Of a DNA stretch of 42,930 nucleotides, positions 13,562-34,857 are shown in pieces; the first letter of the stretch is position 1; every line of letters begins with the position of its first letter. This stretch comes from Pleurocapsaceae cyanobacterium CSU_1_1 (GTDB lineage Bacteria; Cyanobacteriota; Cyanobacteriia; Cyanobacteriales; Xenococcaceae): positions 1 to 42,930 of the forward strand of contig JAAUOU010000029.1 of assembly GCA_012034765.1 (NCBI GenBank), in the 5' to 3' direction. The notes beneath the pieces were generated by a model. It had not been told where the DNA came from. It worked only from the letters and a program-made list of their open reading frames with translations, and did no database searches. The position numbers were made by a program, and so were the translations under genes.

Positions 13562-13953
13562 GGAAACAAATAATGAAAACTTACTTGCTGAAAGAAGATA
13601 AAAACTTGTTTCATCATTAAATTTCTAAAACTTTAAATATCGGCATTTATCTTAAATAAAATAAACATAACTTCATTTTCCCTTTTTGATTTAGAATTGC
13701 CTTTTTTAAGCCCTCCAGGAGATTAATTCTAATTTTCAGATATTCTAGTTTTTTTTCTTGTTGTTTTTTTTACAGGTAATTGCTTTTTCTACTGATTTTT
13801 GCCACTAATAGTAATTAATACCTAAAATTGAAGTTGTTCGATCTCGATATTTTTCGATATTATCTACCGTCTTTTTTCTCATGAATTTAATTTTTGGATA
13901 AGTCTATTCTTGTTCCTAGAATGTCACTTTTTATGATTTATATTAGTGCTTAT
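13562..13953. other. non-coding stretch, nothing recognised
   Basis: About 390 bp of AT-rich DNA with no open frame of convincing length, no tRNA-like or known RNA structure seen by eye. It separates the inverted repeats from the tandem-duplicated small ORFs. Poly-T and poly-C tracts are present but no clear stem-loop with a T-tail. Confidence 0.5.
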
Positions 13954-18407: not shown

Positions 18408-19085
18408 TTATGCAGCTTGTTTATATTCTTGTCTTATTAATTGAAGTCTATAATGATTGAGACTTGAAACTTGAGCCAGAGTATTACTATTATTAGTAGC
18501 TTTTAACATAGTCAACATGGTAATAACAGCTATTTCTGTTTCTTGATTTAGTTGACTATCCATCAGAACAATTTCCATTATTTGAGGAAAAGCTAATGCT
18601 AATACATTAGGTTCAAGTTCTTTTAATAATCGATCAACTGATTGAGGAACTTTTAAGGCAGATTTAACTCCCATGATCATAAAATCATCTAAATGAAGTT
18701 TATTTAATGAATTAGAAAGTAAGTCAAGATTATTTTGTTTGTCTGGCTGACTAATTTGAATTAAATAGGCAAATAATCTTTGTAGTTTTCTTCTTTGGTC
18801 AGATGTAAGTTGATCATAACTATTGATGGCAACAATAGTCTTTTGACAATCAAGATTATCCAGAATTTGCTGCCAGTCTTGTGAGTTACAAAGATCTGGT
18901 TTACCAACTGTCAGGGAAACTTTAATTTTTTCTGCTTGACGAGTCAGATAAGTAACTTGAGCTTGTACTCCCAGATAACTAAGCCATCTAGCGATCGTTT
19001 CTATCAAAGTTGAATATGTATTTTGGGAACTGGCTAACCGACGAATTTGAGTATCTACTAAAGGACGAACAATCTGTGAAAGCAT
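18408..19085 (-). CDS. conserved-looking hypothetical protein (225 aa)
   Basis: A soluble 225-residue protein with no membrane segment and no recognised domain. It starts LSQIVRPLVDTQIRRLA, has a mixed alpha/beta N-terminal half (ARWLSYLGVQAQVTYL), a central Lys/Gln-rich helical part and a C-terminal helical part (VLALAFPQIMEIVLMD). Base and codon use are like the neighbours and the frame is clean, so it is a real gene. It follows PsiE on the same strand at a 139-bp distance and is probably the 3' member of that group. No function is proposed. Confidence 0.7.
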   Translation of the reverse strand: MLSQIVRPLVDTQIRRLASSQNTYSTLIETIARWLSYLGVQAQVTYLTRQAEKIKVSLTVGKPDLCNSQDWQQILDNLDCQKTIVAINSYDQLTSDQRRKLQRLFAYLIQISQPDKQNNLDLLSNSLNKLHLDDFMIMGVKSALKVPQSVDRLLKELEPNVLALAFPQIMEIVLMDSQLNQETEIAVITMLTMLKATNNSNTLAQVSSLNHYRLQLIRQEYKQAA

Positions 19086-19224
19086 TGTATTTATTTTTTG
19101 GTTGTTGAATGATGTCAGTTAGGGAAATGAGGTAGGATATAACCCGCAAACCTGAGCGAGCGAATTTTCTAAGCTGGAATTTGCCTCAAAGATATTATGC
19201 AAAGTGAGCAGGTAAATATGCGCC

Positions 19225-19671
19225 TTAGTGTTCGATTTTGCCTTCAACCTTATGGCTGACTAGCATCAAACCGCCTAATACTACTAAGAAAGAACATATA
19301 GCAAAAACGAGCATTGCATCCATATGAATTATGCCTTCAACAATTATTTCCCGTAGAACTGATACTACAGCTACTTCTACAGCTATACCGACAAAAATTC
19401 TATGATGTTTGAGATAAACTGCTAAGAGACGAAATAATTCTACTAAAATTAGTAAAAATAAGGCTTGAGCGGTAACTTCTTTAACATCCATACCCGATCT
19501 CAAACCAGCGAAAACATCTACAAGAATTAGCATCATTTTAAATACTAAACCGATACCACAGCCAAAGACTAGTAAATCTTGTAGCTTATCTAGATTACGG
19601 AAAATTCTTGTCAAACTAAATCTAGAATCAAAACTACGAGATTTATGTTGGTTACCGATCGCATTATTCAT
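19225..19671 (-). CDS. PsiE family membrane protein
   Basis: A 148-residue protein with four hydrophobic segments, matching the phosphate-starvation-inducible PsiE family: LFLLILVELFRLLAVYLKHHRI and VVSVLREIIVEG are the diagnostic stretches. The start has an excellent Shine-Dalgarno (AAGGAG, 8 nt before ATG). PsiE proteins are small inner-membrane proteins with no proven biochemical activity; in Escherichia coli the gene responds to phosphate starvation. It lies between the His-rich exported protein and the hypothetical gene, all on the minus strand at the 3' side of the NDH/carbonic anhydrase block. Confidence 0.85.
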   Translation of the reverse strand: MNNAIGNQHKSRSFDSRFSLTRIFRNLDKLQDLLVFGCGIGLVFKMMLILVDVFAGLRSGMDVKEVTAQALFLLILVELFRLLAVYLKHHRIFVGIAVEVAVVSVLREIIVEGIIHMDAMLVFAICSFLVVLGGLMLVSHKVEGKIEH

Positions 19672-19841
19672 TTTATTTTCTCCTTATGTTAATTTGTTTT
19701 TTGGTTTTTCTGAAATTATTTAGATTGGGAGAAGTAGGTTTAAATTAAGCCTCAGCCTTAATTAATTAAAGTTTAAAAGCTGATAATATTAAACTTGTTA
19801 CTTCTTTACCCTGAGAGTGAAAGTTGCTTTAAAAAGCATAA

Positions 19842-20503
19842 TTAAGCAACATCACTATTTGGTTGACTCCAATTGTCTAATTTAACTTTTCCGTTAGTTT
19901 GAATTTGACCTATTTCTTTGTTCGGAATTGTATAAGGTGTTGGACGATTGGCAACAACTTTTAGGCTAGGAAGATCTTTTTTGATCTCCGTGTTTTGTGT
20001 TATTGCTTCAGGCTCTTGACTCAAGTTAATTAGTCGAGTGGGGGCTAATCCAGCTTGGATAGACTGCTGATTATCTCTAGATTCGTATTGCTGAAGCTCT
20101 TTTTCGTTGAATGCCTGATTTTGTCCTTGAGCCTGATTTTTTTCGACTATAACTAATTTCTGAGCTTCTTTTTTGGGATGATAAAAAATCTCTGGAACAA
20201 CCACGCTTAACCCAATTATGCTTAAAAAAGAGAAAAATTCAATTTCCTGCGCTTTTTTGGAAGTCAATATTTCGGGGATTGTCGCTGCGGTTGAATGTCC
20301 ATGATCACTTGTTGCTGCGGTTGAATGTCCATGATCACTTGTTGCTGCGGTTGATTTCTTAACTACCTCCTGTTGAGTAGCCTTAGCTACATAGGTATGG
20401 TCAGAGCCACTAGCTGCATTTACCATTCAATTGGGGCGAAAACTCCTACAGCTATTGTTGTCACCACTGGAGCTATTTTTAGCAGATCGAGCTTTAAATT
20501 CAT
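19842..20503 (-). CDS. exported His-rich repeat protein of unknown function, signal peptide split off by a frameshift
   Basis: The main frame (194 aa, ATG at 20426) begins MVNAASGSDHTYVAKA, which looks like the end of a signal peptide. Directly upstream, in another frame, an ORF starting at 20503 gives a clear hydrophobic leader (MNLKLDLLKIAPVVTTIAVG) ending in a stop that overlaps the downstream ATG. Adding one A at the GAA before ATG fuses both into a 220-residue protein with a VNA-AS cleavage site. The mature part has a repeated DHGHSTAATS segment (encoded by a 30-bp direct repeat), one membrane helix (FFSFLSIIGLSVVVPEIFY) and a polar Gln-rich tail. The His-rich part may bind metal (inference). 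The alternative is a translationally coupled leader peptide. Confidence 0.55.
20281..20354. repeat. 30-bp in-frame direct repeat (2.5 copies) encoding His-rich units
   Basis: Unit GTTGCTGCGGTTGAATGTCC plus ATGATCACTT occurs at 20281-20310 (one mismatch) and 20311-20340, then partially at 20341-20354. It codes on the minus strand for repeated ten-residue units STAATSDHGH. Confidence 0.9.
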
Positions 20504-20661
20504 AACCTAAATATTTGTCCTTTTAAAAATATATTTCACAATACAGATTAGTCTAAAAAAGTGTCAAAATCGGAACAAAAGTGAGAATTTTCTTTTTTCT
20601 GACCAATAAATTAAATATTATTAAACACGAAAGGCTTAATATTGAACATAAAAATGCCATA

Positions 20662-20706
20662 AGCAAAAAAAGATAGAGAAAGCGATCGCTTTTTGTTCTC
20701 TATCTT
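20662..20706 (-). terminator. intrinsic terminator after the MATE gene
   Basis: On the minus strand the 11-bp arms AAGATAGAGAA and TTCTCTATCTT enclose a loop that contains a HIP1 palindrome, and the stem is followed by a T-run (TTTTTTT). It lies about 80 bp past the stop of the MATE exporter gene. Confidence 0.75.
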
Positions 20707-20784
20707 ATAACCAACACTTAAGTAGCAAGAAAGTTAATTGATAAAATTGAAGGAAATGAAGTTAAATTAACTTTATTTACAGTG

Positions 20785-22143
20785 CTACGATTCGTTTTGC
20801 CACGCTAAACTTTTACTAGTTTGAATTCCCCAAATTTTGATGCCTAAAGAAATAGCCAGGGTTGCCATATACATGGTTAATGCTAACCATAATGTGTGAT
20901 TATTTTGAAAATACCAAGCGAACCAGGCTACGGGAATAAATCCAAATCCTAAAGCAATGATGGCAGAATTTCGGAGTTTCGCGCTTTCTTTTAAGCCAAT
21001 AACATATCCTTCGAGAACAAAAGCAACAGCACCAAAGGATAACAGAGGTAATAACCAAGTAATATATGCGATCGCACTATGGCTAATCTCGCTGTGACTG
21101 GTAAGCAAAGTGAAAATTGTTTCAGGAAACAGAATCGAGACTAAGGCAAACATTAAAGAAATAGTTAGGCTAGCAAACATAGAAACGTTCAATAACGGCA
21201 TCATCTTTTCTGTCTCACCTGTACCTCGAAAATTACCGATTAGGGTTTGGGTAGTAAGACCAATTCCATTAACCGTAAACTGACTCAAAAGTACAATTTG
21301 AAGTATAAGTCCATTAGCTGCAACTACATCAGTTCCCATTCCTGCACTGAGGTTAGTAAAAATAGAGTAGGCAGTAATCATAGCTACATAGCGGACTAGG
21401 ATATTGCCCTTGAGAATGATGGTAGACTTTAAAGCTTGCCAGTCAAACACTTTCTCTAACGCTGCGGGTAAAGCTTGCCAATCAATACAGGAGGCAACTC
21501 CAATCAGTGCTACCAATAAGGCTAAATACTGACTTAAAGCTGTAGCTAGTCCTGCACCCATACTTGACCATCCCCATTGATTAATCATGAAATAGTCCAT
21601 GATTGCATTTGAGACATTACCAACTAAAGCAATCGCCAGTACCAAACCACTTTTTTCCTGTCCCAAAAACCAACCAATGAGAACAAAATTGAGTAAAACC
21701 GCAGGTGCGCCCCAAATACGGGCATTAAAGTAATCTACCCCAAAAGCTTCGATATCAGGAGAACCAGAAAGAATAGCAAAACCAAACTTTTGAATTGGGT
21801 ATTGTAACAATAAAATAATAATTGCGATCGCCATTGCCACCAAAGCACCTCTTAACCCTGCTAGCAGAATCTGTTCCTGGTCGTTTTCACCTACTGCCTG
21901 AGACGTTATGGCGTTAGTACCATTACGAAAGAATTTTAAAATTCGATAGAGGTAATCAAATAAAATTCCTCCTAAGATAACTCCTGCTAGGTGGCGAATA
22001 TCTGATAGATGACCGAGAAAAGCTGTATCGCAAATTCCCGCTAGAGGAACCATCATGTTAGAGAATATGCTAACGCTAGCTAGTTTAGAAAAGCGAGGTA
22101 GGAAGCTAGTATAGCGAGATGGCAGGGAAAGAGATAAAGTCAT
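20785..22143 (-). CDS. MATE family efflux transporter (DinF-like)
   Basis: A 452-residue integral membrane protein with about twelve hydrophobic segments and the DinF-type MATE pattern: NMMVPLAGICDTAFLGHL near the start, a GWFLGQEKSG segment, NVSNAIMDYFMI, and the second-half repeat beginning RYVAMITAYSIFTNLSAGMG. MATE proteins export organic cations and drugs in exchange for Na+ or H+. It sits between ndhD and the His-rich exported protein on the same strand, with its own terminator. Whether it works with the carbon genes or is an unrelated neighbour is unclear. Confidence 0.88.
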   Translation of the reverse strand: MTLSLSLPSRYTSFLPRFSKLASVSIFSNMMVPLAGICDTAFLGHLSDIRHLAGVILGGILFDYLYRILKFFRNGTNAITSQAVGENDQEQILLAGLRGALVAMAIAIIILLLQYPIQKFGFAILSGSPDIEAFGVDYFNARIWGAPAVLLNFVLIGWFLGQEKSGLVLAIALVGNVSNAIMDYFMINQWGWSSMGAGLATALSQYLALLVALIGVASCIDWQALPAALEKVFDWQALKSTIILKGNILVRYVAMITAYSIFTNLSAGMGTDVVAANGLILQIVLLSQFTVNGIGLTTQTLIGNFRGTGETEKMMPLLNVSMFASLTISLMFALVSILFPETIFTLLTSHSEISHSAIAYITWLLPLLSFGAVAFVLEGYVIGLKESAKLRNSAIIALGFGFIPVAWFAWYFQNNHTLWLALTMYMATLAISLGIKIWGIQTSKSLAWQNES

Positions 22144-22241
22144 AATAACGAAGTGTATCCTTTAGGATAAATTATTGTTTGTTGGCAAAAATGACTATGG
22201 GAAAAATGATTTAGGTAGGATTTTTGAAGTTAGATAGAAAT

Positions 22242-22319
22242 AGGATTGTTTTACCTACCGTTGGTTCAAGCGAGAGATTTTTGATGTTGGTTGTTGCTAT
22301 TACCTAGAAAAACAATCCT
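22242..22319. other. 11-bp inverted repeat with long loop between ndhD and MATE genes
   Basis: AGGATTGTTTT at 22242-22252 is perfectly complementary to AAAACAATCCT at 22309-22319, with a 56-nt loop. It lies just past the ndhD stop and before the MATE start. No T-run follows on the minus strand, so it may be a weak terminator or an mRNA 3'-end stabiliser. Confidence 0.35.
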
Positions 22320-22360
22320 TTTCCTGAATAGACCTTTTAAAGATTAAGCTCAGCAATAAT

Positions 22361-24010
22361 CTAACCCAGGTTGAAGAGTAAGATCTTGTCTAGTTCGTTG
22401 ATGCTAATCATACCTAGAGTTTCACTTGGCTTTATCTCAGGTGCGCTTTTAGGCTTGATGGAAGCATATAAATCATTTGTCTGAGAAACATTAGCCAATA
22501 CTTGATGTTCGTGAGCAGCAACTTGAGTTGTTTTGACATCATAAGTTTGAGTAGCTAGTTTGGGATACAAGCCGATACCGATGATTGGAATCAAAAGACA
22601 AGCAGTAATAAAGATTTCTCTGGGTTGAGCATCTGACCACATAATCTTTTTGTCTTCTAAGAAACTATTTTCTTGGCCGTAAAAGATTTCTCGTAACATT
22701 GAGAGCAAGTAAATAGGAGTCATAATCAATCCCAATGCTGCCAGCATGACTACAATAATTTTGAAGGAAGAAGTATAAGCATCACTGGTAGCTAAACCGA
22801 GAAATACGGTGATCTCGCCAATAAAGCCACTCATTCCAGGAAGTGCCAGGGAAGCTAGAGAGCCAGCAGTAAACAGGGCAAAGGTTTTAGGCATTTTCTC
22901 TGCCAGTCCGCCCATTTCATCGAGCCATAAAGTATGAGTGCGATCATAAGTTACCCCGCAGAGGAAGAACAACGCAGCAGCAATTAAACCATGAGAAAGC
23001 ATCTGTAACATTGCACCGCTTAAACCTAAGTCGTTGAAGCAAGCAATACCAATGAGAACAAAGCCCATGTGAGATATCGAAGAGTATGCCATCCGTCGTT
23101 TGAGGTTGGTCTGTCCAAAGGCTGCAAAAGCACCGTAGACAATATTGACAATTCCCAAAACAATCAGCACAGGAGCAAAATAGACATGAGCATCAGGCAA
23201 CATTTCGATATTCAGACGAATCAGCGCATAACCACCCATTTTTAGTAATACACCAGCCAAAACCATTGAAATTGGCGTAGATGCTTCACCATGTGCGTCA
23301 GGTAACCAAGTATGAAAAGGGAAGATAGGTAGCTTAACACCAAAGGCAATTAATAAACCTGCGTAGACAGAAAGCTCTAATGGTAGGGGATAATTTTTGA
23401 GAGTTAAGGCTTCAAGGTCGAAAGTAACTGTGTCGCCATAAAAAGCGAGTGCTAATGCTCCAACTAGAATAAATATCGATGCTAAGGCAGTGTAGAGAAT
23501 AAACTTTGTGGCTGCATATCGACGTTTTGGGCCACCCCAGATTGAAATAAGTAGATAAACTGGAACTAGTTCTATTTCCCACATTAAGAAGAATAAAAGT
23601 AGGTCTTTAGCTAGAAATACTCCCAACTGCGCACTATACATAGATAGCAGTAGGAAGTAAAAAAGCTTGGGCTTATTCTTGACTTTCCATGCAGCCAAGA
23701 TTGAGAGAGTATTCACCAAGCCTGTTAATATAACTAGAGGCCAAGAGAGGTCATCAGCACCTAGCGACCAATTGAGGTCTAACTGAGGTATCCAGGAATA
23801 AGTTTCTACTAATTGAAAAGTAGGATTTTGGAAGTCGTAACAACGCCAAGAAATAAAGGCGATTAAGGAAAGGTCAATAAAACCCACAGCGAAGGCATAC
23901 CAGCGAATTGTTTTGCCGTCTTTATCTGGTATTAAAGGAATAAATAAAGCAGCAAGCAACGGAAATAAAGTAGCTATAGTTAGCCAGGGAAATTGATTGT
24001 TAATCATCAT
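22361..24010 (-). CDS. ndhD: NAD(P)H-quinone oxidoreductase subunit 4 (NdhD, NDH-1)
   Basis: Proton-pumping antiporter-like subunit of cyanobacterial NDH-1, 549 residues and about 14 membrane segments. Key features are [14 protein letters not shown] with the conserved membrane Glu, [22 protein letters not shown] with the channel Lys, and [15 protein letters not shown]. The sequence looks like the respiratory/cyclic NdhD1/D2 group rather than the CO2-uptake NdhD3/D4 group, though this needs a tree. The hydrophilic tail after about 505 ([13 protein letters not shown]) is as expected in place. NdhF lies 2.3 kb upstream on the same strand, separated by a carbonic anhydrase, an orphan HTH gene and a response regulator. 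A 24-codon hydrophobic ORF precedes it. Confidence 0.92.
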
Positions 24011-24089
24011 ATTTTGTAGGGAAAGAGGTTGATCAAAAATTATCTTCAGAGCTAACTGAATATTTGTCTTAAGTTAAATAAGACTAGAG

Positions 24090-24164
24090 TTAATCTTCTT
24101 GGTTATTGAAAAATAAAGCTGGCAAGAAGACACATAAAAAGATCATGGTAGGGATTTGAGGCAT
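24090..24164 (-). CDS. possible 24-aa hydrophobic microprotein upstream of ndhD
   Basis: An ORF MPQIPTMIFLCVFLPALFF followed by NNQED, stop at 24090-24092, lies 80 bp upstream of the ndhD start and downstream of the carbonic anhydrase terminator. It would make one short membrane helix with a charged tail. No Shine-Dalgarno is clear. NDH-1 and photosystems do contain very small membrane subunits, but no known one is recognised, and a chance ORF of this size is quite possible. Confidence 0.3.
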   Translation of the reverse strand: MPQIPTMIFLCVFLPALFFNNQED

Positions 24165-24302
24165 TTGAGCTGTTCTTAATTAATTGTTCTTATAGTACGA
24201 GATTAATAGTGACAAAATCGAAACAAAAATAGCTAAATTATCGATAAGAGATTACTTTGTCAATGGACAGGAATACTTAAAATGTATAATTGATAACTAT
24301 TT

Positions 24303-24356
24303 TATAAAAAACTACTACTTACTCTAATCAAGTTATCAAAGAGAATAAGTAGTAGA
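24303..24356 (-). terminator. intrinsic terminator after the beta-carbonic anhydrase gene
   Basis: Long stem: CTACTACTTACTCT (24312-24325) pairs with AGAGAATAAGTAGTAG (24340-24355) with a small bulge. On the minus strand it is followed by TTTTTT. It separates carbonic anhydrase transcription from ndhD. Confidence 0.75.
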
Positions 24357-24486
24357 AAAAAAAGATAGTGATGATGAGCGATCGCTAGATAAATATAGTT
24401 AAGTGCCTGGAAAGAATCATTTACAGTTAATGCTTGCTAATTTCTGATTCCAAATATTGGTATTTTAATTAATTTTGTCTATTTTT

Positions 24487-25236
24487 TTAACTAATAATGC
24501 TAACCTCACCCGTTGTTAAACTGTAGTAAGCACCAACGATTTTAAGTTTGCCTTTTTCGACTAAATCATGAAGTAAAGGAGAGGAATTAAGGTTTTTAAT
24601 TTGTAACATGACATTTTGTTTAATAGTATCAGTATAAACTTTTTCTGAATCTTCTTTATTTGCTCTATCAATAGCTGGTTGAATTGCTGCTATGATACTA
24701 CCCATTTGACCTGGAAGTGGCTTTCCTTCTAAGGCAGCTTTGACTGCACCGCATTTTTCATGACCAAGTACCATAATAACTTTTGAACCTAACACATAAG
24801 TGCCATATTCTAAGCTCCCAATTTCTTCTGGAGTAGCTATATTTCCCGCATCACGCACTACAAATAAATCCCCAAAACCTCTATCGAATATAACTTCAAC
24901 AGGAACTCTTGAATCTGCACAACTCATTATAGAAACAAGGGGTTTTTGATCTTTAGCAACTTCTTGTAAACGTATATAATCTTGGTTACGAGATTCAGGT
25001 TTATTTTCAACAAATCGCTGATTTCCTAGTAATAATTCTTCTAAAATTTTTTCTGGAGTTGAATTTTCATCAAGTGTATCTAGAGCAATAGTTGTCTCTT
25101 TAATTGTCTCTTGTTTTTGAGGAGAATCAACCTGAAAAGCTGTGGCTTTAGTCGCAATTGTTGTTCCCAGAGCAATTGTACCAAGTTGGAGTAATTTTCT
25201 TCTGGCTACTGTGTGATTATTATTCATGACTTTCAT
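24487..25236 (-). CDS. exported beta-class carbonic anhydrase (Tat-type signal)
   Basis: Interconverts CO2 and bicarbonate. The 249-residue protein begins with a twin-arginine-like signal (ARRKLLQLGTIALGTT, Arg12-Arg13, cleavage near residue 33), so it should act in the periplasm or thylakoid lumen rather than the cytosol. The beta-CA zinc site is complete: Cys106 and the Asp108-Arg110 dyad in MSCADSR, then His159 and Cys162 in GHEKCGA. The C-terminal VGAYYSLTTGEV is typical. It may correspond functionally to EcaB-type enzymes, but orthology is not established. Its neighbours are NdhD and NdhF with bestrophin and PxcA upstream, which fits a role in bicarbonate use. A well-formed terminator follows. 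Met4 is an alternative start. Confidence 0.9.
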   Translation of the reverse strand: MKVMNNNHTVARRKLLQLGTIALGTTIATKATAFQVDSPQKQETIKETTIALDTLDENSTPEKILEELLLGNQRFVENKPESRNQDYIRLQEVAKDQKPLVSIMSCADSRVPVEVIFDRGFGDLFVVRDAGNIATPEEIGSLEYGTYVLGSKVIMVLGHEKCGAVKAALEGKPLPGQMGSIIAAIQPAIDRANKEDSEKVYTDTIKQNVMLQIKNLNSSPLLHDLVEKGKLKIVGAYYSLTTGEVSIIS

Positions 25237-25303
25237 TTAATTTAGATGCATCGCAGTTTAATTTGAATTTTGATTAGATTGGTTACAACTCTTAAAAATA
25301 TTT

Positions 25304-25771
25304 TTAAATCTTGTTTATTTCTTGAGTATTGATTTGAGGAACAGTAACAGAAATATTCAATTTTTCTTTTAAGCGATAACGTATAAGCTGGTGAACTGCC
25401 GTATAGCTTATTTCTATACCATGCTCTTTTTTAAGCCATAAATGTGCTTCTTTATAGCTATGAAATTGCTCTGAGTCTTGTAACTTTTTTTTGAGGCTTT
25501 GTTCTATAAGCGGAGTAATCTTCTTGTTTCTACCGCTACTTTTTTCCTTAGTCAGCAAGGCTTTAAGACCTTGAGCGCGATATATATTTAACCACCTAGA
25601 TATTGTAGTTCTATGTTTTCCTAAAAGTAAAGAGATTGCTGTAACTGTTTTTACGCGATCGCTTTTAATCCAGTATATTACCTGTATTCTTTCTCTTACT
25701 TCTACAAATTCTACCAGTCTAAGCAGCTTTTCTAATTCTGTAGTTGTTTCGGCGATTTCTATTTTAACCAT
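25304..25771 (-). CDS. orphan IS630-type helix-turn-helix protein (transposase N-terminal part)
   Basis: A 155-residue protein made only of DNA-binding parts: a first HTH (AISLLLGKHRTTISRWLNIYRAQG, about residues 47-70) and a second winged HTH (YKEAHLWLKKEHGIEISYTAV, about 106-127). This is the N-terminal region of IS630-family transposases. The catalytic DDE half is missing: the protein ends normally and only 67 bp separate it from the carbonic anhydrase gene. It is either the relic of an insertion or a domesticated regulator. It lies between the response regulator and carbonic anhydrase, same strand, no terminal inverted repeats seen. Confidence 0.75.
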   Translation of the reverse strand: MVKIEIAETTTELEKLLRLVEFVEVRERIQVIYWIKSDRVKTVTAISLLLGKHRTTISRWLNIYRAQGLKALLTKEKSSGRNKKITPLIEQSLKKKLQDSEQFHSYKEAHLWLKKEHGIEISYTAVHQLIRYRLKEKLNISVTVPQINTQEINKI

Positions 25772-25838
25772 ATTCTTAACAGTTTTTTATTTCGCTTTTT
25801 CTACACTGTTGTAGACAATTAATGACTAATTAATAAGT

Positions 25839-26201
25839 TTAAGCAACTAATCGGTCAATCGTACTGACCAAATTTTCTTGACCTACAGGCTTGGTTAAAT
25901 AGGCATTTGCTCCTATTTTTAAACCCCAAAATTGTTCTATTTCGCTTTTTCTAATTGAACAAATAACCACAGGAATTTTTTTGGTCGCTGCTTTTTTTTT
26001 AAGCTGCTGACAAACATTAAAGCCACTAATATCAGGTAAAATAACATCCAAAAGAATTATATCTGGGGGACTATTTTCAATTATTTTCAAGGCTTCTGTA
26101 CCACTTCTGGTAATTAAAACATTGAAACCTTTCCTCAGAAATAAAGGAATAAAGTTATTTAGATCAACAAAAGAGTCTTCGACAATCAATAGATTTTTCA
26201 T
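25839..26201 (-). CDS. CheY-like single-domain response regulator
   Basis: A 120-residue receiver without output domain. Glu8-Asp9, acceptor Asp52 (LDVILPDISG), Ser82 and Lys104 (YLTKP) are all in place. It resembles the chemosensory CheY at 10400-10765 in key positions and in the motif FWGLKIGANAYLTKP. Its ATG follows directly on a heptamer-repeat array, with no Shine-Dalgarno. No kinase is adjacent; the CheA at 3520-6588 is a possible partner (inference). It lies between ndhF and the orphan HTH gene on the same strand. Confidence 0.88.
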   Translation of the reverse strand: MKNLLIVEDSFVDLNNFIPLFLRKGFNVLITRSGTEALKIIENSPPDIILLDVILPDISGFNVCQQLKKKAATKKIPVVICSIRKSEIEQFWGLKIGANAYLTKPVGQENLVSTIDRLVA

Positions 26202-26202
26202 A

Positions 26203-26308
26203 ATTAGTCATTAGTCATTAGTCATTAGTCATTAGTCATTAGTCATTAGTCATTAGTCATTAGTCATTAGTTGTTAGTTGTTAGTTGTTAGTTATTAGTT
26301 GTTAGTCA
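26203..26308. repeat. heptameric repeats (TTAGTCA)9 and (TTAGTTG)n
   Basis: Nine copies of TTAGTCA followed by about five TTAGTTG/TTAGTTA-type units fill the gap between ndhF and the response regulator, ending one or two bases before the regulator's start codon. On the coding strand each unit reads TAATGAC, so it carries overlapping stop (TAA, TGA) and ATG triplets. Confidence 0.92.
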
Positions 26309-26332
26309 AGGTTGCTCAGATTTAACACCTAA

Positions 26333-28291
26333 CTAAGTCAGACTAAATAAAAGTACAAAACTCAATACTGCACTAAATATAGTTAAGACGTAGAATTGAG
26401 AGCGACCAGTTTCTAAATATTTAAAACCTTCTCCACTGGCAATGGTAACTAAACCCGTCAGGTTAACTACACCATCAACAACTCGATGGTCTGTTTCCAT
26501 AATTTGCCTGGCTAGACGACGACAGTTGACTACAAACACCTGATGATAAAGATCATCAAAGTAAAATTTGTTCAGGGATAGTTGATAAAGAGTAGAATAC
26601 TTTTCGGCGATCGCCACTCGGTCAATTTTAGGTTGTAAGTACATCAAAGAAGCTACCGTGATGCCAATTAAAGCTATACCAACCGAACTACCCGCCATAA
26701 TCAGAAATTCCTGGGGATCAAACTGATTAGCTAGAGTAATAATTTCTCCAGGGGCATGAATAAATCTAGCAAAAACATTATCCCAAGGTCTGCCTATCCA
26801 GCCAAGGAAACAGGAAGGAATAGCCAAAACCACCACAGGAAAAATCATTGTCAGAGGTGATTCATGAGGATACTTATCCTGTCCAAAAGTTGGACAGTCT
26901 AATTCTTGGTTACCGCGAAACTCACCTTCAAAGGTCATAAAGTAAATGCGGAACATATAGAAAGCCGTAAATCCAGCCGTTGCCCAGCCGAGCAACCAAA
27001 GTGTTGGATTAGCACTGAAAGCTAAACTTAGAATATCATCTTTTGACCAAAATCCAGCAAAAGGAGGGATTCCGCAGATTGCTAAAGTACCAATCAAAAA
27101 AGTAGTAGCGGTAACTGGCATATACTTGCGTAAACCACCCATTAAGCGCATATCTTGTGCCAATAGAGGATCATGTCCTACGACCGTTTCCATACCATGA
27201 ATTACTGACCCAGAACAGAGAAATAACATGGCTTTAAAGCAAGCATGGGTGAAAAGATGAAACAAACCAGCCGAATATCCGCCGATGCCCATCGCCATCA
27301 CCATATAGCCCAGTTGAGACATAGTAGAATATGCCAATCCTTTTTTCAGGTCATTTTGAGTTAAAGCGATCGCGGCCCCAAGCAAAGCAGTAATCGCACC
27401 AGTCCAGGCGATAACCCCCATCACAACAGGAATCTGCTCAAAAACTGGATACATCCGTGCAATCAAGAACACTCCAGCAGCAACCATGGTCGCAGCATGA
27501 ATCAAGGCTGAAATCGGCGTAGGCCCTTCCATCGCGTCTGGTAGCCATACATGGAGAGGAAACTGGGCTGATTTTGCTACTGGGCCTAAAAAAACCAAGA
27601 TTGCCAATATGGCTGCCAGTCCGCCTGATAATGCGCCAGAATTAACTAATTCTGAGAGTCTTAACCCCATAATGTTAAAGTCAAAACTTCCCGTAGCCCA
27701 ATACAGACCAAGTATGCCTAATAGCAAACCGAAGTCACCCACACGGTTGGTTATAAAGGCTTTTTGGCAAGCAGCAGCAGCACTAGGGCGATCGTACCAA
27801 AAACCGATCAAGAGATAGGAACACATCCCCACTAGTTCCCAAAAAATGTAGACTTGTAGCAGGTTGGAACTAAGCACCAGACCTAACATGGAAGAACTAA
27901 AGATACTTAAATAAGCATAAAATCTGACATAGCCTGAGTCATGAGCCATATAGCCATCGCTATAAATCATGACTAACAAAGCGACGGTAGTCACAACGAC
28001 TAACATCAAAGAACTTAGAGAATCGATCGTATAGCCGACGGTTAATCTAAAATTATTTGCCGTTGCCCATTCAATAGTTTGAGTATAAGCTTCGTGTCCT
28101 TGAATTTGACTCCACAATAAGCCAAACGATAGGAGCATCCCTACCCCGATTAAAGAAATAAGTAAGACAGCATTAATTTGTCTTAAACTATTGGTAAATT
28201 TATTAGATAAGATTAAACCAATGCCTACCAAAGTTGCTCCTAATAAGGGTAAAACTGGTATAAGCCAGGCATATTGATAAAGTATTTCCAT
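26333..28291 (-). CDS. ndhF: NAD(P)H-quinone oxidoreductase subunit 5 (NdhF, NDH-1)
   Basis: Distal proton-pumping subunit of NDH-1, 652 residues with about 15-16 membrane segments. It begins MEILYQYAWLIPVLPLLGA like NdhF1, and shows VYIFWELVGMCSYLLIGFW, GPVAKSAQFPLHVWLPDAMEGPTPISAL and LKKGLAYSTMSQLGYM, the conserved Glu/Lys/His channel regions. The length is slightly shorter than typical NdhF1 in the soluble-facing region after about 475. The N-terminus looks like the NdhF1 (NDH-1L) class rather than the CO2-uptake NdhF3/F4 class, which usually sit with CupA/CupB genes; none is present here. It is preceded by a 36-codon hydrophobic ORF and the bestrophin gene, same strand. Confidence 0.93.
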   Translation of the reverse strand: MEILYQYAWLIPVLPLLGATLVGIGLILSNKFTNSLRQINAVLLISLIGVGMLLSFGLLWSQIQGHEAYTQTIEWATANNFRLTVGYTIDSLSSLMLVVVTTVALLVMIYSDGYMAHDSGYVRFYAYLSIFSSSMLGLVLSSNLLQVYIFWELVGMCSYLLIGFWYDRPSAAAACQKAFITNRVGDFGLLLGILGLYWATGSFDFNIMGLRLSELVNSGALSGGLAAILAILVFLGPVAKSAQFPLHVWLPDAMEGPTPISALIHAATMVAAGVFLIARMYPVFEQIPVVMGVIAWTGAITALLGAAIALTQNDLKKGLAYSTMSQLGYMVMAMGIGGYSAGLFHLFTHACFKAMLFLCSGSVIHGMETVVGHDPLLAQDMRLMGGLRKYMPVTATTFLIGTLAICGIPPFAGFWSKDDILSLAFSANPTLWLLGWATAGFTAFYMFRIYFMTFEGEFRGNQELDCPTFGQDKYPHESPLTMIFPVVVLAIPSCFLGWIGRPWDNVFARFIHAPGEIITLANQFDPQEFLIMAGSSVGIALIGITVASLMYLQPKIDRVAIAEKYSTLYQLSLNKFYFDDLYHQVFVVNCRRLARQIMETDHRVVDGVVNLTGLVTIASGEGFKYLETGRSQFYVLTIFSAVLSFVLLFSLT

Positions 28292-28357
28292 GATTTATAT
28301 TTACTTTGATTGGGGTTTACTTAATATTTGCGTGAAGGTCAAGAAGTGTTCTTTATC

Positions 28358-28468
28358 TTAGTCATAGGGATCGTTGGCAAAGATAATAGGCATAATTAGT
28401 ATGATGGGCAATGAAAATATAATGATTGCCCATACAAGTAACATAAAATTTTCAAAGATAGATAGCAT
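28358..28468 (-). CDS. 36-aa single-helix membrane microprotein between bestrophin and ndhF
   Basis: The ORF reads MLSIFENFMLLVWAIIIF then SLPIILIMPIIFANDPYD and stops at 28358-28360. It forms one long transmembrane stretch with an acidic end, with the size and shape of small thylakoid subunits. It fills the only gap between the bestrophin stop and the ndhF start (66 bp upstream of ndhF), on the same strand. No strong ribosome-binding site is seen. No known Psb, Psa, Pet or Ndh small subunit is recognised. It is too short for usual gene callers, so it may be missed in annotations. Confidence 0.5.
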   Translation of the reverse strand: MLSIFENFMLLVWAIIIFSLPIILIMPIIFANDPYD

Positions 28469-28517
28469 GGAATTGTCCACGAAAAAAATTAAGAGCCATA
28501 TAATATGGGAAATCAGA

Positions 28518-29768
28518 TTAAGCTACTTTTTTAGGTAAATCGATCCTAATTTTTGAGAGTTGGTCAGAGGATTGTTGCTGCATTAAATTTTCTACGTTGC
28601 CTTTAATAGTGTTATGGATAGAATTTAAATACTGCTCACTGTATTGATTAAACGGTTGTTCCATCTCTGTTGTAACTTCATTCATCAACAGGTAGATAGA
28701 GCTAACTAAAAGCATCACAACAGTTGTACCTAAACCAAATTGGCTCATGATCCCCATGGGTAATACTATTAAATAAGCGATCAAAAATACTTTTAAAGCA
28801 ATGGTATGAATTAAAGGTGCTGATTTTTTCACAACTCGCTCACAATCTCCCAGAATATCGGTTAGGCGCTCAACACTTCTTTGTAAATAGGAATACTGAA
28901 AACCATCAAGCTGCTCTTGTTTATACTGACGTTTTAGATAGTCACTAAGCCAAAAAATAATATCTAAAGGTGCATTCTTAGATACCTGCAATCTTTTATA
29001 TTCCAGTTGAGATAATAAAGGCTTTAACTCAGTCATTGGCTGTTGTCGCAGATGTAGCTTGGTCGCCATAGCAAAAGCAGATACCAACTTGATAGTCGAT
29101 TCTTTCTCATATTGGTCTTGCGGTTCGTGTTCCTCTACATAGTGCCAGATACCTTGAATTTGATTATTAATTAAATCCACCATTACTAACCAAGGTTTAC
29201 GTCTTAAATAAAAGCTTTTATAAGCAGCATTAATTCTTAGCGTTAGTAATGAACCCAAAACTATGGTAAAACCAACAACAGAGAAAGCGATCGCTTGACT
29301 GGAAAAGACTTCAGGTAAAAGTTTCCAGCGATTTAGCCAAGAAATAAACAAGCCATAACCACCACATAAAGCGATCGCAGGTAAAACTTGGGGAAAAATA
29401 GCTTTAACTGACTGAAAAATAATTTGTCTTTTGTTGGGTTGTTTTTCCCGAATCGATCTGGGAGAAACTAATTCTTGCTGTAAGGCTGGTGGGGATAAAA
29501 AAACCCTTGAAACCTTGCTGTTTGGGGATTTGCTTAAAATCTCTTGGGGAGCGGGCAACTTTTCCCTTTTGCCAAATTTAGATTGTTTTCTGATAGCCAT
29601 GATTGAATCTTCGGTAAGTAGGACTTTTTTTGCTTGATTTGCCAAATTTTGCTCAAATATAAACTCGCTGTAGTCTATCAAGTCATCTATTCCCATTAGA
29701 TTGAATATAATCTCTGTTATCAACCACACTGCCATCTTAATTAGTAACTTTCGAGCTTTTACCTGCAT
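28518..29768 (-). CDS. divergent bestrophin-family anion channel with long N-terminal extension
   Basis: Bestrophins are pentameric anion channels; algal thylakoid members are thought to pass bicarbonate. The bestrophin domain covers about residues 115-400: four membrane segments, TLRINAAYKSFYLRRKPWL (about 176-194, the family's R.N.AY..F...R..W motif), and the C-terminal EMEQPF motif. The NDLP segment that normally follows is lost, and it differs clearly from the canonical bestrophin at 41367-42297. Residues 1-112 are extra: a hydrophobic start (AVWLITEIIFNLMGIDDL) and a basic, Ser/Lys-rich linker. The distal start is supported by AGGAG 10 nt before the ATG. It lies between PxcA and the microprotein/ndhF pair. 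Confidence 0.82.
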   Translation of the reverse strand: MQVKARKLLIKMAVWLITEIIFNLMGIDDLIDYSEFIFEQNLANQAKKVLLTEDSIMAIRKQSKFGKREKLPAPQEILSKSPNSKVSRVFLSPPALQQELVSPRSIREKQPNKRQIIFQSVKAIFPQVLPAIALCGGYGLFISWLNRWKLLPEVFSSQAIAFSVVGFTIVLGSLLTLRINAAYKSFYLRRKPWLVMVDLINNQIQGIWHYVEEHEPQDQYEKESTIKLVSAFAMATKLHLRQQPMTELKPLLSQLEYKRLQVSKNAPLDIIFWLSDYLKRQYKQEQLDGFQYSYLQRSVERLTDILGDCERVVKKSAPLIHTIALKVFLIAYLIVLPMGIMSQFGLGTTVVMLLVSSIYLLMNEVTTEMEQPFNQYSEQYLNSIHNTIKGNVENLMQQQSSDQLSKIRIDLPKKVA

Positions 29769-29938
29769 TGGTTTTAATCTCCTAAAGAGTGCAATGTTGA
29801 GACAATATAGCTAGAAATATTTGATGTGGAGGGAGATAAAAGCTACAGCAACAAATAGCTGATAAATCGGATTTAACTTAAATTTATTTTGAGGCGATCT
29901 TGTTGATGATATCTAACCCATTTATAAAGTTATTTTCT

Positions 29939-31228
29939 TTATTCATTCATCTCTTTCAAGGTTGCCACAGTAGAAGCGGATAGTTGGCTAAGGTATCTAA
30001 AAATCCAATATTTCATCATGGTGTCCATCACTACTGGTACGGTAGCGATAAACAGAGATATACTACTTTGATTGGCAGCAACTCCTAAGTGATTAGCTAA
30101 ACCTTCTAGCAAGACTTCCCAACCGTGAGGAGAATGGAAACCAACGAACATATCTGTAAATAAAATAATCGCAAAGGCTTTAGCACTATCGCTTAAGCCA
30201 TAAATAATTTTGTCAATAAAGGACTTGAGAACAGTAATATCATTTCGGCGGATTAACAGCACAAAAGCGAAGGCAAAGATCCCCACAAAATCTGCAAAGA
30301 CATTACTAATAGAGTTGTTGCTCTTGTGATGAAAAACTTCAGCAATTTCGTTGGCTTTTTCTTGAACATTCTTTTCTAGTTCTTCACTAGACATGGACGG
30401 AAAACCTTTGAGCATCCGATCCATTTTTAGCTGTTCTTCGTAAGTGTTAAGCTCTACTAGAGCCTCTTCTTTCCACTCTGAGTTTAAATTATCGATGACA
30501 ATTGCAGCTTCTTCTCCACCTCGATACTGATCGACAATCGGCGCGATAACCAAGCGTTTTGATACCTGCTGAGTGATAATCGGCACAATAATCAATAATG
30601 CTAGTAGCCTAACTCCCACCACTGTAACGGCACGAGAACGGCGAAACTCATTTACTACCTCTTCTTCAGACTTGGGATTCAAGTCTTGTTTAATTTTGTC
30701 AAACGTTTTGCCAACCGATCCTGTTAGTGGAGTAGAACCAGGAAATAACGAATTTAAGGGCGAACTATTTTTCCGTTTCTGCTGACTAGGAGGTGTAACG
30801 TTAACTGGTGTTGTAGTAGAAGAAACATCGACAATGCTGCTGGACGAATAAGATTCCCCCCCAGGCTGAGATACAGGAACTATAGCTGATGGTTGATTCT
30901 GAACAATAGTGTAGTTGGCTAAAATACCTTCGGCAAAGATTAGCTTCTCTAAATTATTTGAACCAAGATTTCCAGAGGCAGCACTACTAGAGTTGAATTG
31001 TTCGATTCCGCTGCGTAAAATATCTAAGTTTTCTTGTACTTCTCCTTGTAAGCGATCGCTAGTTAGAGATTCTACAGGTACTCTATAGCCACTAAAATAG
31101 CGATTTTCAATTGATTTAATTCTCGAAGCAGCCTCATAAGCTTCTTTTAGAGATTGTTCTGGATTGCCAAAAAATTGCTCTTTGAGTTTACTAAAGGGAG
31201 ATTTGCGTGCAGAAGGAGTAGAAGTCAT
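29939..31228 (-). CDS. pxcA: proton extrusion protein PxcA (CemA family)
   Basis: Homolog of the chloroplast envelope CemA and cyanobacterial PxcA/CotA, needed for light-induced proton extrusion and affecting CO2 uptake. It has 429 residues: a polar, Ser/Pro-rich N-terminal half, then four membrane segments in the C-terminal half (VVGVRLLALLIIVPIITQQV, FADFVGIFAFAFVLLIRR, AFAIILFTDMFVGFHSPHGW, SLFIATVPVVMDTMMKYWIF). The signature HSPHGWEVLLEG and the end YLSQLSASTVATLKEMNE are typical. It is preceded by a short CcmM-like ORF (63 bp gap) and followed by bestrophin on the same strand, consistent with an ion/carbon homeostasis cluster. Confidence 0.9.
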   Translation of the reverse strand: MTSTPSARKSPFSKLKEQFFGNPEQSLKEAYEAASRIKSIENRYFSGYRVPVESLTSDRLQGEVQENLDILRSGIEQFNSSSAASGNLGSNNLEKLIFAEGILANYTIVQNQPSAIVPVSQPGGESYSSSSIVDVSSTTTPVNVTPPSQQKRKNSSPLNSLFPGSTPLTGSVGKTFDKIKQDLNPKSEEEVVNEFRRSRAVTVVGVRLLALLIIVPIITQQVSKRLVIAPIVDQYRGGEEAAIVIDNLNSEWKEEALVELNTYEEQLKMDRMLKGFPSMSSEELEKNVQEKANEIAEVFHHKSNNSISNVFADFVGIFAFAFVLLIRRNDITVLKSFIDKIIYGLSDSAKAFAIILFTDMFVGFHSPHGWEVLLEGLANHLGVAANQSSISLFIATVPVVMDTMMKYWIFRYLSQLSASTVATLKEMNE

Positions 31229-31291
31229 TGTTCAACAAAGGATAAATAATAAAATTAGTTTTAAGTAGGCAAAAGTATTATTTCATCAGCA

Positions 31292-31558
31292 TTATGCTGC
31301 ACTGTGAACTTTTAACTGTTTTGGCTGATGATTGGTCGATGACAAACTTTTTTTAACAAACAGGCTTGGTTTTTGCTGCTTGTAAAGTGTCTGACTATTA
31401 GTCCCCTGAAGACTACTTGCAGTTGATTGAGTCATAATTCTTGCACCTGGAGCTACATATCTTCCTGAAGGTATATGTATGCTTGTTGATAATGCCCGAT
31501 AATTTTTAGGATTAGATTCTTTGTTAGTGCTGATTAATCTGAGTTTTGTAGTAGTCAT
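31292..31558 (-). CDS. 88-aa protein resembling the C-terminal coil of CcmM-type gamma-carbonic anhydrase
   Basis: Residues 27-50 (IHIPSGRYVAPGARIMTQ) match the last beta-helix turn of CcmM-like gamma-carbonic anhydrases, including GDGRYVPAGALITTQ in the protein at 12676-13356. The rest, about 38 residues on each side, is basic and low in complexity (KKSLSSTNHQPKQLK). No histidine zinc site is present, so it cannot be a carbonic anhydrase alone. The sequence upstream of the ATG carries no further gamma-CA similarity, so this is not simply the tail of a broken gene. It is the first gene before PxcA. It may be a docking peptide or partner for a gamma-CA (inference). Confidence 0.6.
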   Translation of the reverse strand: MTTTKLRLISTNKESNPKNYRALSTSIHIPSGRYVAPGARIMTQSTASSLQGTNSQTLYKQQKPSLFVKKSLSSTNHQPKQLKVHSAA

Positions 31559-32103
31559 AAGAAATATTATTTTCGTAGGTATTAATAGCTATGGGTGAAC
31601 TATATACTGATTTGAACAATAGATTAATCAAATTAAAGTAACAAACTCGGATCAAAGTTTAATTGAATTTTAAAATCTTCTTCGAGTTTGCTTTGGAAGT
31701 ACGAACAAATATTTTGGCATTTTGGCGTTCATCGTAACTATTTTTATTGTCTTTACAGAAAATTTACATTCTGATACTATGGTTGTCAGTGATTAATAAA
31801 ATTTTAAGTAACTAATCTATGTCGGCTATAGTGTCAATCAGGTTTATTAGCCTGGTTGACCAGCTAAATAAGTTTTGCTCCACCTGTTATGAATCTAATA
31901 TTTGCGAGGAATAAATTTAAATTAATTGAATTTTTAAAAGTTCCCCGTAGGAATCTGAATTTGCTAATTAAAAATAGTATTTTTAATTTTCAGTTGATTT
32001 CAAATATAACAGTGCATTTATCGTCAGAGATTTAGTTGCTCTCAAAGAATAAAAATTTATTAGTCAATTGATAGCGAAAAAATATACCTTAAGAGGCGCT
32101 TAT
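31559..32103. promoter_or_regulatory. divergent promoter region between the carbon cluster and the two-component genes
   Basis: A 545-bp AT-rich region without a gene. It should hold the start sites of both the leftward cluster (31558 downward) and the rightward regulator (32104). At about 31752-31770 two TTTACA half-sites occur (TTTACAGA and TTTACATT) with a 3-bp gap; this resembles, but is spaced one base wider than, the RpaB-binding HLR1 element. No stem-loop with T-tail is seen. Confidence 0.4.
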
Positions 32104-32784
32104 ATGAGGCTTTTATTAGTTGAAGATGATTGGGAGATCAGTGAATTACTAGAAGAGGTTTTGACCGATCAAAATTATGTAGTCGATATTGCTACAGATG
32201 GTCAAGCTGGTTGGGATTTCGTCGAAGCTTTTGATTATGATCTAGTTCTAATGGATGTAATGCTGCCTAAAATGGATGGTTTCAGTCTTTGTCGTCAATT
32301 ACGCGATCGCGAATACGGAATGCCAGTTCTAATGTTGACTGCCAAAGATACAACCGCTGAGAAAGTTCAAGGATTAGATGCGGGTGCTGATGACTACATA
32401 GTTAAACCCTATAAATTGAATGAGCTACTAGCGCGAGTTCGTGCCTTGCTACGTCGAGGAATTAGCTCGATGTCGCCGATTTTAAAATGGGGTGAAATGC
32501 GCCTCAACTCCAATACCTGTCAAGTACAATATCAGGGGCAACCTTTACAATTGACAGCCAAGGAATATTGTCTACTAGAACTATTTATGCGTAACGGCAG
32601 TAAATTGTTAAGTCGAAACGCAATTTTAGAAAATCTGTGGTCTTTTGAAGAGCCACCCGATGAAGATGCAATTAAAGCTCATATTAAACGCTTAAGAAAA
32701 AAGTTAACTAAAGCTGGAGTTGCTAATGATTTTATTGAGACAGTTTATGGATTAGGGTATCGTCTTAGTGCTGCAAGTTCATAG
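32104..32784 (+). CDS. OmpR-type response regulator (RppA/ManR-like)
   Basis: A 226-residue DNA-binding response regulator. The receiver has Glu7-Asp8-Asp9, acceptor Asp51 (LMDVMLPKMDG), Thr79 and Lys101 (IVKPY); the C-terminal winged helix has the OmpR pattern QLTAKEYCLLELFMRNG, SRNAILENLW and FIETVYGLGYRL. The ATG at 32104 is chosen because it begins the receiver and is preceded by AGAGG at 8 nt; the frame is open to 32068. Two histidine kinases follow on the same strand, beginning 586 bp downstream. Cyanobacterial relatives control redox or metal responses (RppA, NrsR, ManR); which applies here is not known. Confidence 0.88.
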   Translation: MRLLLVEDDWEISELLEEVLTDQNYVVDIATDGQAGWDFVEAFDYDLVLMDVMLPKMDGFSLCRQLRDREYGMPVLMLTAKDTTAEKVQGLDAGADDYIVKPYKLNELLARVRALLRRGISSMSPILKWGEMRLNSNTCQVQYQGQPLQLTAKEYCLLELFMRNGSKLLSRNAILENLWSFEEPPDEDAIKAHIKRLRKKLTKAGVANDFIETVYGLGYRLSAASS

Positions 32785-34723: not shown

Positions 34724-34857
34724 AAAGCTTTATTCATTAAAATGTCTATTGTTTTTGTTTCTAGTTTGTCACCTTCGGTAACTTAGCATTTGTAAACAGA
34801 CAAAAAACTATAAATTTATTTTTAAGTCAAGTTTACTTCTGGCTTTAATTCTCTGTG

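Follow-up and report, generated by a model that had tools for sequence, protein, structure and literature searches.

Several arrangements that handle protons or inorganic carbon at membranes have been described in cyanobacteria, plastids and algae, although the way in which NDH-1, PxcA and exported carbonic anhydrases (CAs) cooperate in cyanobacteria is still unsettled. The complexes NDH-1MS and NDH-1MS' (NdhF3-NdhD3-CupA and NdhF4-NdhD4-CupB) are associated with the CA EcaB which, according to one report, is mainly thylakoid-bound and interacts with CupA/B (PMC10096703). According to two further sources, the plastid protein CemA (Ycf10) is similar to PxcA and possibly energises the envelope (PMC5983714), and its proton extrusion has been proposed to acidify the intermembrane space, with conversion of HCO3- to CO2 (PMC9174948). 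Relatives of both systems, and of the algal bestrophins, the Cam gamma-CAs and the cyanobacterial chemosensory arrays, lie together in a 42,930-nucleotide stretch of Pleurocapsaceae cyanobacterium CSU_1_1 (the window; contig JAAUOU010000029.1, C51 among the 196 contigs of a genome of 4.6 Mb that is 95.9% complete). The element in question is a gene cluster built around pxcA2, which encodes a second, cluster-type PxcA paralog. That this is a conserved cluster appears virtually certain, and quite likely it forms one regulon. The chances seem about even that this regulon acts on protons and inorganic carbon outside the cytoplasm under two-component control, being tied to a chemosensory array by position and control sequence.

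As in the NDH-1MS and NDH-1MS' systems with EcaB, ndhF and ndhD flank a beta-CA of the twin-arginine translocation (Tat) type in the window, and homologs of this CA hold the same slot, flanked by ndhF3 and ndhD3 upstream of cupA, in 6 of the 9 ndhF3-cupA operons read (L120, L121, L127, L128, L130 and L225), which may be taken as genomic support for the link between EcaB and NDH-1MS. The window differs, however, by its F1-type NdhF, an NdhD that stands apart from the D3/D4 rows, the lack of a Cup gene in the cluster and a separate operator. With PxcA/CotA and CemA, PxcA2 shares the CemA domain and the conserved C-terminal core, but it falls in a clade apart from housekeeping PxcA. The likeness to the algal thylakoid bestrophin-CAH3 system consists in the presence of a bestrophin and an exported CA, whereas the CA is of the beta class, the bestrophin has lost motifs and, at the cluster loci read, NDH genes were never seen with an intact bestrophin. 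The sequence family, C-terminal segment and zinc ligands of Cam and CcmM are shared by the window, where no RbcS-like repeats were found, the genes lie outside a carboxysome operon and the catalytic network is changed. Finally, the Pix, Pil and Tax arrays have the same set of PatA, CheY, CheW, MCP and CheA, but the receptor of the window carries a dCache-type periplasmic sensor and its array is linked to gamma-CA and pxcA.

The survey covered 291 genomes of the order, including Pleurocapsa sp. CCALA 161 (G005, the closest relative of the window genome, G000), Hyella patelloides LEGE 07179 (G169), Chondrocystis NIES-4102 (G004), Chroococcidiopsis thermalis PCC 7203 (G156, with a plasmid of 370,830 bases) and the metagenome-assembled Xenococcus sp. 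MO_188.B8 (G264) and Pleurocapsa sp. MO_192.B19 (G008). PxcA matches were found in 280 of them (E 1e-20), and a cluster-type pxcA at 24 loci in 23 genomes; a scan from one query gives 7 loci only. The PxcA tree placed 17 of these loci; those of G222, G272, G203, G156 and G029 and the second locus of G003 were assigned by context or identity, and the pxcA of G268 is a 27% fragment at a contig end. One clade (100/99) unites all 16 cluster rows placed with the row of G060, whose cluster-type pxcA has no bestrophin nearby. Housekeeping PxcA, which the window genome also encodes (C81), forms its own clade, and the PxcA of sbtA operons a third set. A structure model of PxcA was not used (predicted TM-score 0.32).

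In the original prediction, bestrophin, beta-CA, NdhF, NdhD and PxcA genes on one strand formed a candidate island of proton and inorganic-carbon type. All five are recovered at those positions on the minus strand by profile matches. With 24 loci of the cluster type read, the grouping is no chance one, and its order is partly conserved in Xenococcaceae. The gene set is real, but the unit is larger than claimed, as gamma-CA, chemosensory and two-component genes and a common operator belong to it too. Positions 2118-36210 are read as one super-cluster, with the gene of a non-ribosomal peptide synthetase (NRPS) interposed, because the row from the end of ndhF to the che genes is contiguous in Xenococcus MO_188.B8. 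Its genes and other open reading frames (ORFs) are as follows, where ratios of non-synonymous to synonymous substitution (dN/dS) compare the window with CCALA 161.

2118..3446, minus strand: ClpX-like ATPase, flanking the array at the edge of the super-cluster
3520..6588, minus strand: CheA, by its content of Hpt, CheW and receiver domains
6814..9678, minus strand: chemoreceptor (methyl-accepting chemotaxis protein, MCP) with a periplasmic dCache-type sensor
9996..10367, minus strand: CheW, shorter than in relatives
10400..10921, minus strand: CheY, part of the array
10891..11166, minus strand: small Mo-nitro_C-domain ORF, a recurrent member of the array
11205..12470, minus strand: PatA-type response regulator with DUF4388 and a receiver domain
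12676..13356, minus strand: Cam-type gamma-CA homolog of 226 aa (NF040597, E 4.8e-66, 223 bits, cut-off 380), operator-like site upstream
14691..18134, minus strand: interposed NRPS-type gene, named by eye from the translation, no operator-like site before it
18408..19085, minus strand: orf225, syntenic in G005, G264 and G193
19225..19671, minus strand: PsiE-family protein (PF06146)
19842..20426, minus strand: orf194, syntenic in G005, G003 and G264, operator-like site upstream
20785..22143, minus strand: MATE transporter (PF01554), after ndhD in four other clusters (G005, G003, G193 and G264)
22361..24010, minus strand: NdhD-type subunit, extra copy (NF009212, 883 bits, cut-off 645; dN/dS 0.064)
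24487..25236, minus strand: Tat-type, EcaB-like beta-CA (PF00484, 140 bits) with an ARRKLL start and CADSR and HEKC motifs
25304..25771, minus strand: helix-turn-helix ORF, weakly IS630-like (NF033545, 54.6 bits, cut-off 100), perhaps an insertion remnant
25839..26201, minus strand: CheY-like receiver
26333..28291, minus strand: NdhF1-type subunit, extra copy (NF005626, 1147 bits, cut-off 963; NdhF3 model below cut-off)
28518..29768, minus strand: divergent bestrophin (PF25539, 162 bits) with motif loss, stem 1.34 and dN/dS 0.33
29939..31228, minus strand: PxcA2, cluster-type PxcA/CemA paralog (PF03040, 294 bits, cut-off 27.4; own clade; dN/dS 0.049)
31292..31558, minus strand: orf88, an 88-aa ORF with the C-terminal segment of Cam/CcmM only, poorly constrained (dN/dS 0.74)
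32068..32784, plus strand: RppA-like response regulator, probably starting at ATG 32104 and transcribed away from the pxcA operon (NCBIfam RppA, 236 bits, cut-off 250)
33371..34723, plus strand: RppB-like sensor histidine kinase (NCBIfam RppB, 245 bits, cut-off 400)
34855..36210, plus strand: second histidine kinase, HK2 (Pfam HisKA/HATPase), operator-like site upstream

The core of PxcA, bestrophin and gamma-CA recurs in distant cyanobacteria, including C. thermalis. A bestrophin gene lies nearby, meaning within 7 kb of pxcA, at 15 of the 24 loci, and both a response regulator and a histidine kinase at 17; at L118, L141, L145 and L161 the contig stops close to pxcA, and absences there are not scorable. 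Among the 11 loci from outside the family, bestrophin is nearby in 10 and gamma-CA in 9, commonly in the order gamma-CA, tail ORF, pxcA, bestrophin (the tail ORF in 6 of them; L153 and L161 are ordered otherwise). C. thermalis and two relatives continue this row with a response regulator, PatA, the Mo-nitro_C ORF, CheY, CheW, MCP and CheA, the Mo-nitro_C ORF not being called in L150, one of these three Chroococcidiopsis-type loci. Within the family, the order from pxcA to orf225 of the window is repeated in CCALA 161, where the two halves of the super-cluster lie on different contigs, and Xenococcus MO_188.B8 has in one contiguous row the end of ndhF, CA, ndhD, MATE, orf194, PsiE, orf225, gamma-CA, PatA, the Mo-nitro_C ORF, CheY, CheW, MCP and CheA. 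The order from gamma-CA through PatA to the che genes is also found in Hyella, CCALA 161, G276, G264, G003 (contig C9) and G193, and partly in G008.

The stability of this last order, from gamma-CA through PatA, CheY, CheW and MCP to CheA, across the family would also be expected of a surface-motility island in which PxcA, the CAs and the NDH subunits are incidental passengers. Such an island seems very improbable, since pxcA, ndhD and ndhF are strongly constrained and share an operator with the array operon, and since pxcA persists with its two-component genes where no array is nearby. Purifying selection was found on pxcA, ndhF, ndhD and the MATE gene, with a dN/dS of 0.096 for ndhF, that of housekeeping ndhF being 0.034.

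The original prediction, modelled on green algae, had the bestrophin admit HCO3- to the lumen or periplasm, where protons from NDH-1 would serve the exported CA in its dehydration. The adjacency of the three components in the window and CCALA 161 and the twin-arginine (RR) start of the CA agree with such a scheme, but the distribution of the genes makes it improbable, and the partnership of bestrophin and NDH does not hold up. An NDH subunit is present in 7 of the 24 cluster loci, and bestrophin and NDH occur together only in the window and CCALA 161, which are sister strains; the five other NDH-bearing clusters (G003, G264, G193, G237 and G222) are without a bestrophin gene. No bestrophin match was found anywhere in the genomes of G264, G193, G237 and G222 at E 1e-60, matches being present in 183 of the 291 genomes. 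Conversely, 13 of the 15 bestrophin-bearing loci show no NDH gene (the contigs of L118 and L141 stop inside the bestrophin gene, and NDH presence there is not scorable).

The window protein is recognisable as a bestrophin by its domain, and PDB bestrophins match alignment A1. Nonetheless, the segments RFWEGRKLWG and EEPFGHDPNDLPLD, kept or nearly kept in Hyella and seven rows from outside the family, are lost in the bestrophins of the window and CCALA 161, which share a long common stem (1.34), and partly changed in G008; in G003 the N-terminal module alone survives, as a separate ORF. Because five NDH-bearing clusters lack bestrophin and the protein of the two sister strains that do have it evolves fast and is without the motifs of its clade, the relation between bestrophin and NDH in the cluster is read, from sequence comparison, as replacement and not as partnership. 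The N-terminal module of about 55 aa is mobile-looking: the first 55 residues (29600-29768, minus strand) have matches throughout the genus in numerous short ORFs that stand alone, and are fused to bestrophin in Hyella as well. A second bestrophin gene at 41403-42297 (minus strand) is apparently broken, its match being split over two frames.

Another bestrophin set, on contigs and plasmids (L125, L129 and L174), is accompanied by RppA/B-like genes and an aquaporin-like ORF (named by eye), in L125 and L129 also by a beta-CA; L174 has two weak matches to the cluster operator.

The trees of NdhF and NdhD, a step put forward in the original prediction, place the window proteins as additional, divergent copies and not as the only housekeeping ones. 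A housekeeping identity was rejected, given the other copies in the genome and their separation in the trees. The window genome encodes a further NdhF1-type protein at C101 (75% identity), NdhF4 at C166, NdhF3 at C142 and five further NdhD-type genes. F1-type NdhF matches occur in 280 of the 291 genomes (E 1e-150), and at least two copies were found only in G000, G003 and G005, a lower bound because four candidates were scored per genome; the copy listed for G264 is the island one. The NdhF tree joins the window copy to the island copies from G005 and G003 (94/93), outside the housekeeping clade of the genus (11 rows, 100/100), and gives the island copy of G264 no supported place. For NdhD, one clade (100/100) comprises the window copy, the island copies from G005, G003 and G193 and another copy from G003, and a different clade (98/99) the island copies from G237, G222 and G264 together with G000_C60. 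These two separate clades suggest that NdhD joined this position of the cluster at least twice. A test for the NDH-1MS/MS' type was negative, as the window NdhF lies above the subunit-5 cut-off and reaches 360 of 589 bits with the NdhF3 model, and the trees keep them apart. No cupA or cupB gene was found in the window. The absence of CupA/CupB and NdhD3/F3 stated earlier is right for the window but wrong for the genome, which has CupA, NdhD3 and NdhF3 at C142 and CupB, NdhD4 and NdhF4 at C166.

The beta-CA had been described as an exported enzyme with an RR start and a zinc site, and its family agrees with this description: an RR pair stands at the N-terminus of 21 of 21 homologs, the CxDxR motif is present in 20 and HxxC in all 21. 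The Tat assignment and the predicted thylakoid or periplasmic location are read from the RR motif. A recent arrival of this CA in two sister strains only was considered and is ruled out by the row of ndhF end, CA and ndhD in Xenococcus MO_188.B8.

The gamma-CA is closely bound to the cluster, as all 17 genomes with a match (E 1e-60, out of 291) are among the 23 with a cluster-type pxcA (G268 with the pxcA fragment only). The Cam residues R59, D61, Q75, D76, H81, E84, H117, H122 and N202 are intact in Hyella and in 9 of 9 gamma-CAs of non-family genomes. The window protein keeps the zinc ligands H81, H117 and H122 and shows the changes D61Y, D76G, E84D and N202D, and at least one zinc ligand is lost in G003 (two copies), G008, G193, G264 and G276. 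The small protein before pxcA, orf88, had been called a CcmM-like fragment. Six ORFs at the same position in relatives match the Cam model (E 1.5e-7 to 0.03), each with its C-terminal part, but orf88 alone gives a weak NCBIfam CcmM match (E 0.026) and comprises the C-terminal segment only. A role as a CcmM scaffold found no support, the gamma-CA protein showing hexapeptide-repeat matches only and no RbcS-like repeats.

A link of the regulon to carbon is supported by other loci, at which dedicated inorganic-carbon genes are accompanied by PxcA paralogs and related CAs. A row of sbtA, sbtB, CA and a pxcA paralog was found at seven loci (L124, L126, L154, L157, L158, L159 and L160) from several cyanobacterial families; in L124 the CA gene is separated from pxcA by two other ORFs, and L123 is an eighth locus, with sbtA, a CA fragment and pxcA. 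Further Tat-type beta-CA homologs follow sbtA-sbtB in L224 and L226. This parallel operon suggests that PxcA paralogs are coupled to carbon uptake more widely. No account of the pxcA-bestrophin-CA cluster or of the sbtA-sbtB-CA-pxcA operon was found in the literature searched, a scope that took in few subscription journals.

The chemosensory set of the type-IV-pilus kind is complete in the window, with CheA, CheW, CheY, PatA and MCP. The predicted topology of the MCP comprises two membrane segments and a domain in the periplasm, for which a model built from 10 aligned sequences (predicted local distance difference test, pLDDT, 82.7) gave top Foldseek matches in the PDB that include the dCache sensors PctA, TlpA and Tlp3 (E about 1e-10 to 1e-9). 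CheW has 123 aa, as against 184-221 aa in relatives (191 aa in L166), and is possibly shortened. Between ndhF and the beta-CA gene lies the CheY-like gene, whose product is 45% identical to the CheY of the array. In G193, G276 and G280 (L219, L220 and L221), orthologs of the window beta-CA adjoin CheA and a CheW-like ORF (named by eye); these che genes belong to a different paralog, with 48-49% identity to the island che genes as against 56-71% among themselves. The same non-island paralog adjoins ndhF3-cupA in L122.

The sequence AAAGTAACA occurs in 9 of 10 divergent intergenic regions before the tail ORF/pxcA operon. It is part of GAGTTTGTTACTTT, is preceded by TTGTTCC-type bases and is present in several loci as two copies 22 bases apart. 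A matrix was made from 14 training sites, none of them from the window, although the one from CCALA 161 has the same sequence as the window site at 31631. With this matrix, six sites in the window score at least 14, five of them before genes or operons:

31631..31658, minus strand: score 33.2, before the orf88-pxcA operon, identical to the training site of CCALA 161
13495..13522, minus strand: score 29.2, before gamma-CA-PatA-che
24202..24229, minus strand: score 21.4, before ndhD
34752..34779, plus strand: score 21.3, before HK2
20554..20581, minus strand: score 16.0, before orf194-psiE
13907..13934, plus strand: score 18.3, no clear target gene

The other fetched loci (662,567 bases) hold five sites at this score, equivalent to 0.3 expected in the window. 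Four of the five stand at related genes, namely the pxcA of G060 (L155, counted as background in the scan), an island-type ndhD that stands alone in G003 and two genes on the bestrophin plasmid of C. thermalis. Column-permuted matrices found a mean of 0.063 sites in the window (300 trials), and the matrix found 0.035 in resampled windows (200 trials). Elsewhere, sites precede gamma-CA in L152, L156, L161 and L164, PatA in L151 and pxcA in L153. We infer that the neighbouring RppA-like regulator binds this operator-like sequence.

Whether the cluster serves inorganic carbon is evenly balanced, and several findings weigh against it or against a common regulon. Only 3 of 23 genomes have the beta-CA inside the cluster, and the G264 copy has lost the catalytic Asp (CAGSR); the ndhF3-cupA operons of the window genome (L214) and G003 (L171) are without a CA, and L122 (G007) has a fragment only. 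The dN/dS values of bestrophin (0.33), beta-CA (0.32) and orf88 (0.74) are above those of their neighbours. No operator site at score 14 was found in L149, L150 and L163, and none scoring at least 12 at the ndhF3-cupA, ndhF4-cupB and sbtA loci scanned or at housekeeping ndhF. The NdhR low-CO2 motif gave seven matches with two mismatches, none before a cluster gene. Because there is no NdhR-like site at cluster genes and no operator at the classical inorganic-carbon loci scanned, the regulon may respond to pH, redox or ions and not to low CO2.

These same absences, from the classical loci of the CO2-concentrating mechanism and for NdhR, fit a homeostasis regulon for pH, ions or acid stress, in which PxcA2, NDH, MATE, PsiE and bestrophin would hold cytoplasmic pH and membrane potential and the CAs would buffer, with no special carbon role. 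The RppA/B-like character of the regulator agrees with it, as do the related sites on the C. thermalis plasmid, which precede an aquaporin-like ORF (named by eye) and a small ORF. It is nonetheless somewhat unlikely, given that the clusters contain CA genes of both the beta and the gamma class and that PxcA and CA paralogs are present inside dedicated inorganic-carbon operons.

For a regulon acting on protons and inorganic carbon outside the cytoplasm, the following course can be proposed, of which transport, localisation, regulator binding and stimulus are what we infer. The RppA-like regulator would bind the operator-like sequence and control the regulon. PxcA2 would extrude protons, as is thought for PxcA/CemA, aided in the lineage of the window by an NDH-1 complex with the island NdhF and NdhD. 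On the acid side, the Tat-exported beta-CA would convert HCO3- to CO2 or buffer the pH there, and the CO2 would then enter and be trapped by ordinary CupA/CupB complexes encoded elsewhere in the genome. In the older, Chroococcidiopsis-type form of the cluster, an intact bestrophin may provide the anion path and an intact Cam-type gamma-CA the CA role; in Xenococcaceae, decay or loss would have affected the gamma-CA and in many cases the bestrophin, NDH subunits having joined, and in three genomes the beta-CA too. The chemoreceptor presumably detects a small ligand outside the cell and may guide cells in gradients of inorganic carbon or pH. A more far-reaching version seems rather doubtful: in it, the dCache chemoreceptor and the RppA/B-like pair would read external inorganic carbon or pH and together direct both surface motility and a local CO2 supply from acid plus CA, based on the dedicated PxcA and, in Xenococcaceae, on a second NDH-1 module with its own NdhF and NdhD, independent of CupA/CupB.

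A group of surface-dwelling cyanobacteria apparently has here a little-known way to manage CO2 and acidity at the cell surface. The cluster is a defined gene set with a common operator-like sequence, and its presence or absence across comparable strains makes it possible to test how proton handling of the PxcA type is connected with external CA. A chemosensory array tied to CA genes implies that surface cyanobacteria may seek carbon or pH besides light. Hyella bores carbonate and Chroococcidiopsis lives in rock; if the chemosensory carbon-acquisition reading is true, it could help rock- or shell-dwelling species to draw carbon from carbonate surfaces.

In a plasmid collection no island was found, NdhF matches being below 60% identity and cyanobacterial bestrophin matches at most 35%. 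Contig C4 of G003 (525 kb; L115, L116 and L171), which could be a large plasmid or a duplicated region, holds ndhF3-ndhD3-cupA, two copies of the pxcA cluster and a gamma-CA accompanied by an MCP fragment. In the window, a run of 7-base repeats (gactaat type) is found at 26203-26310 (minus strand), between ndhF and the CheY-like gene.

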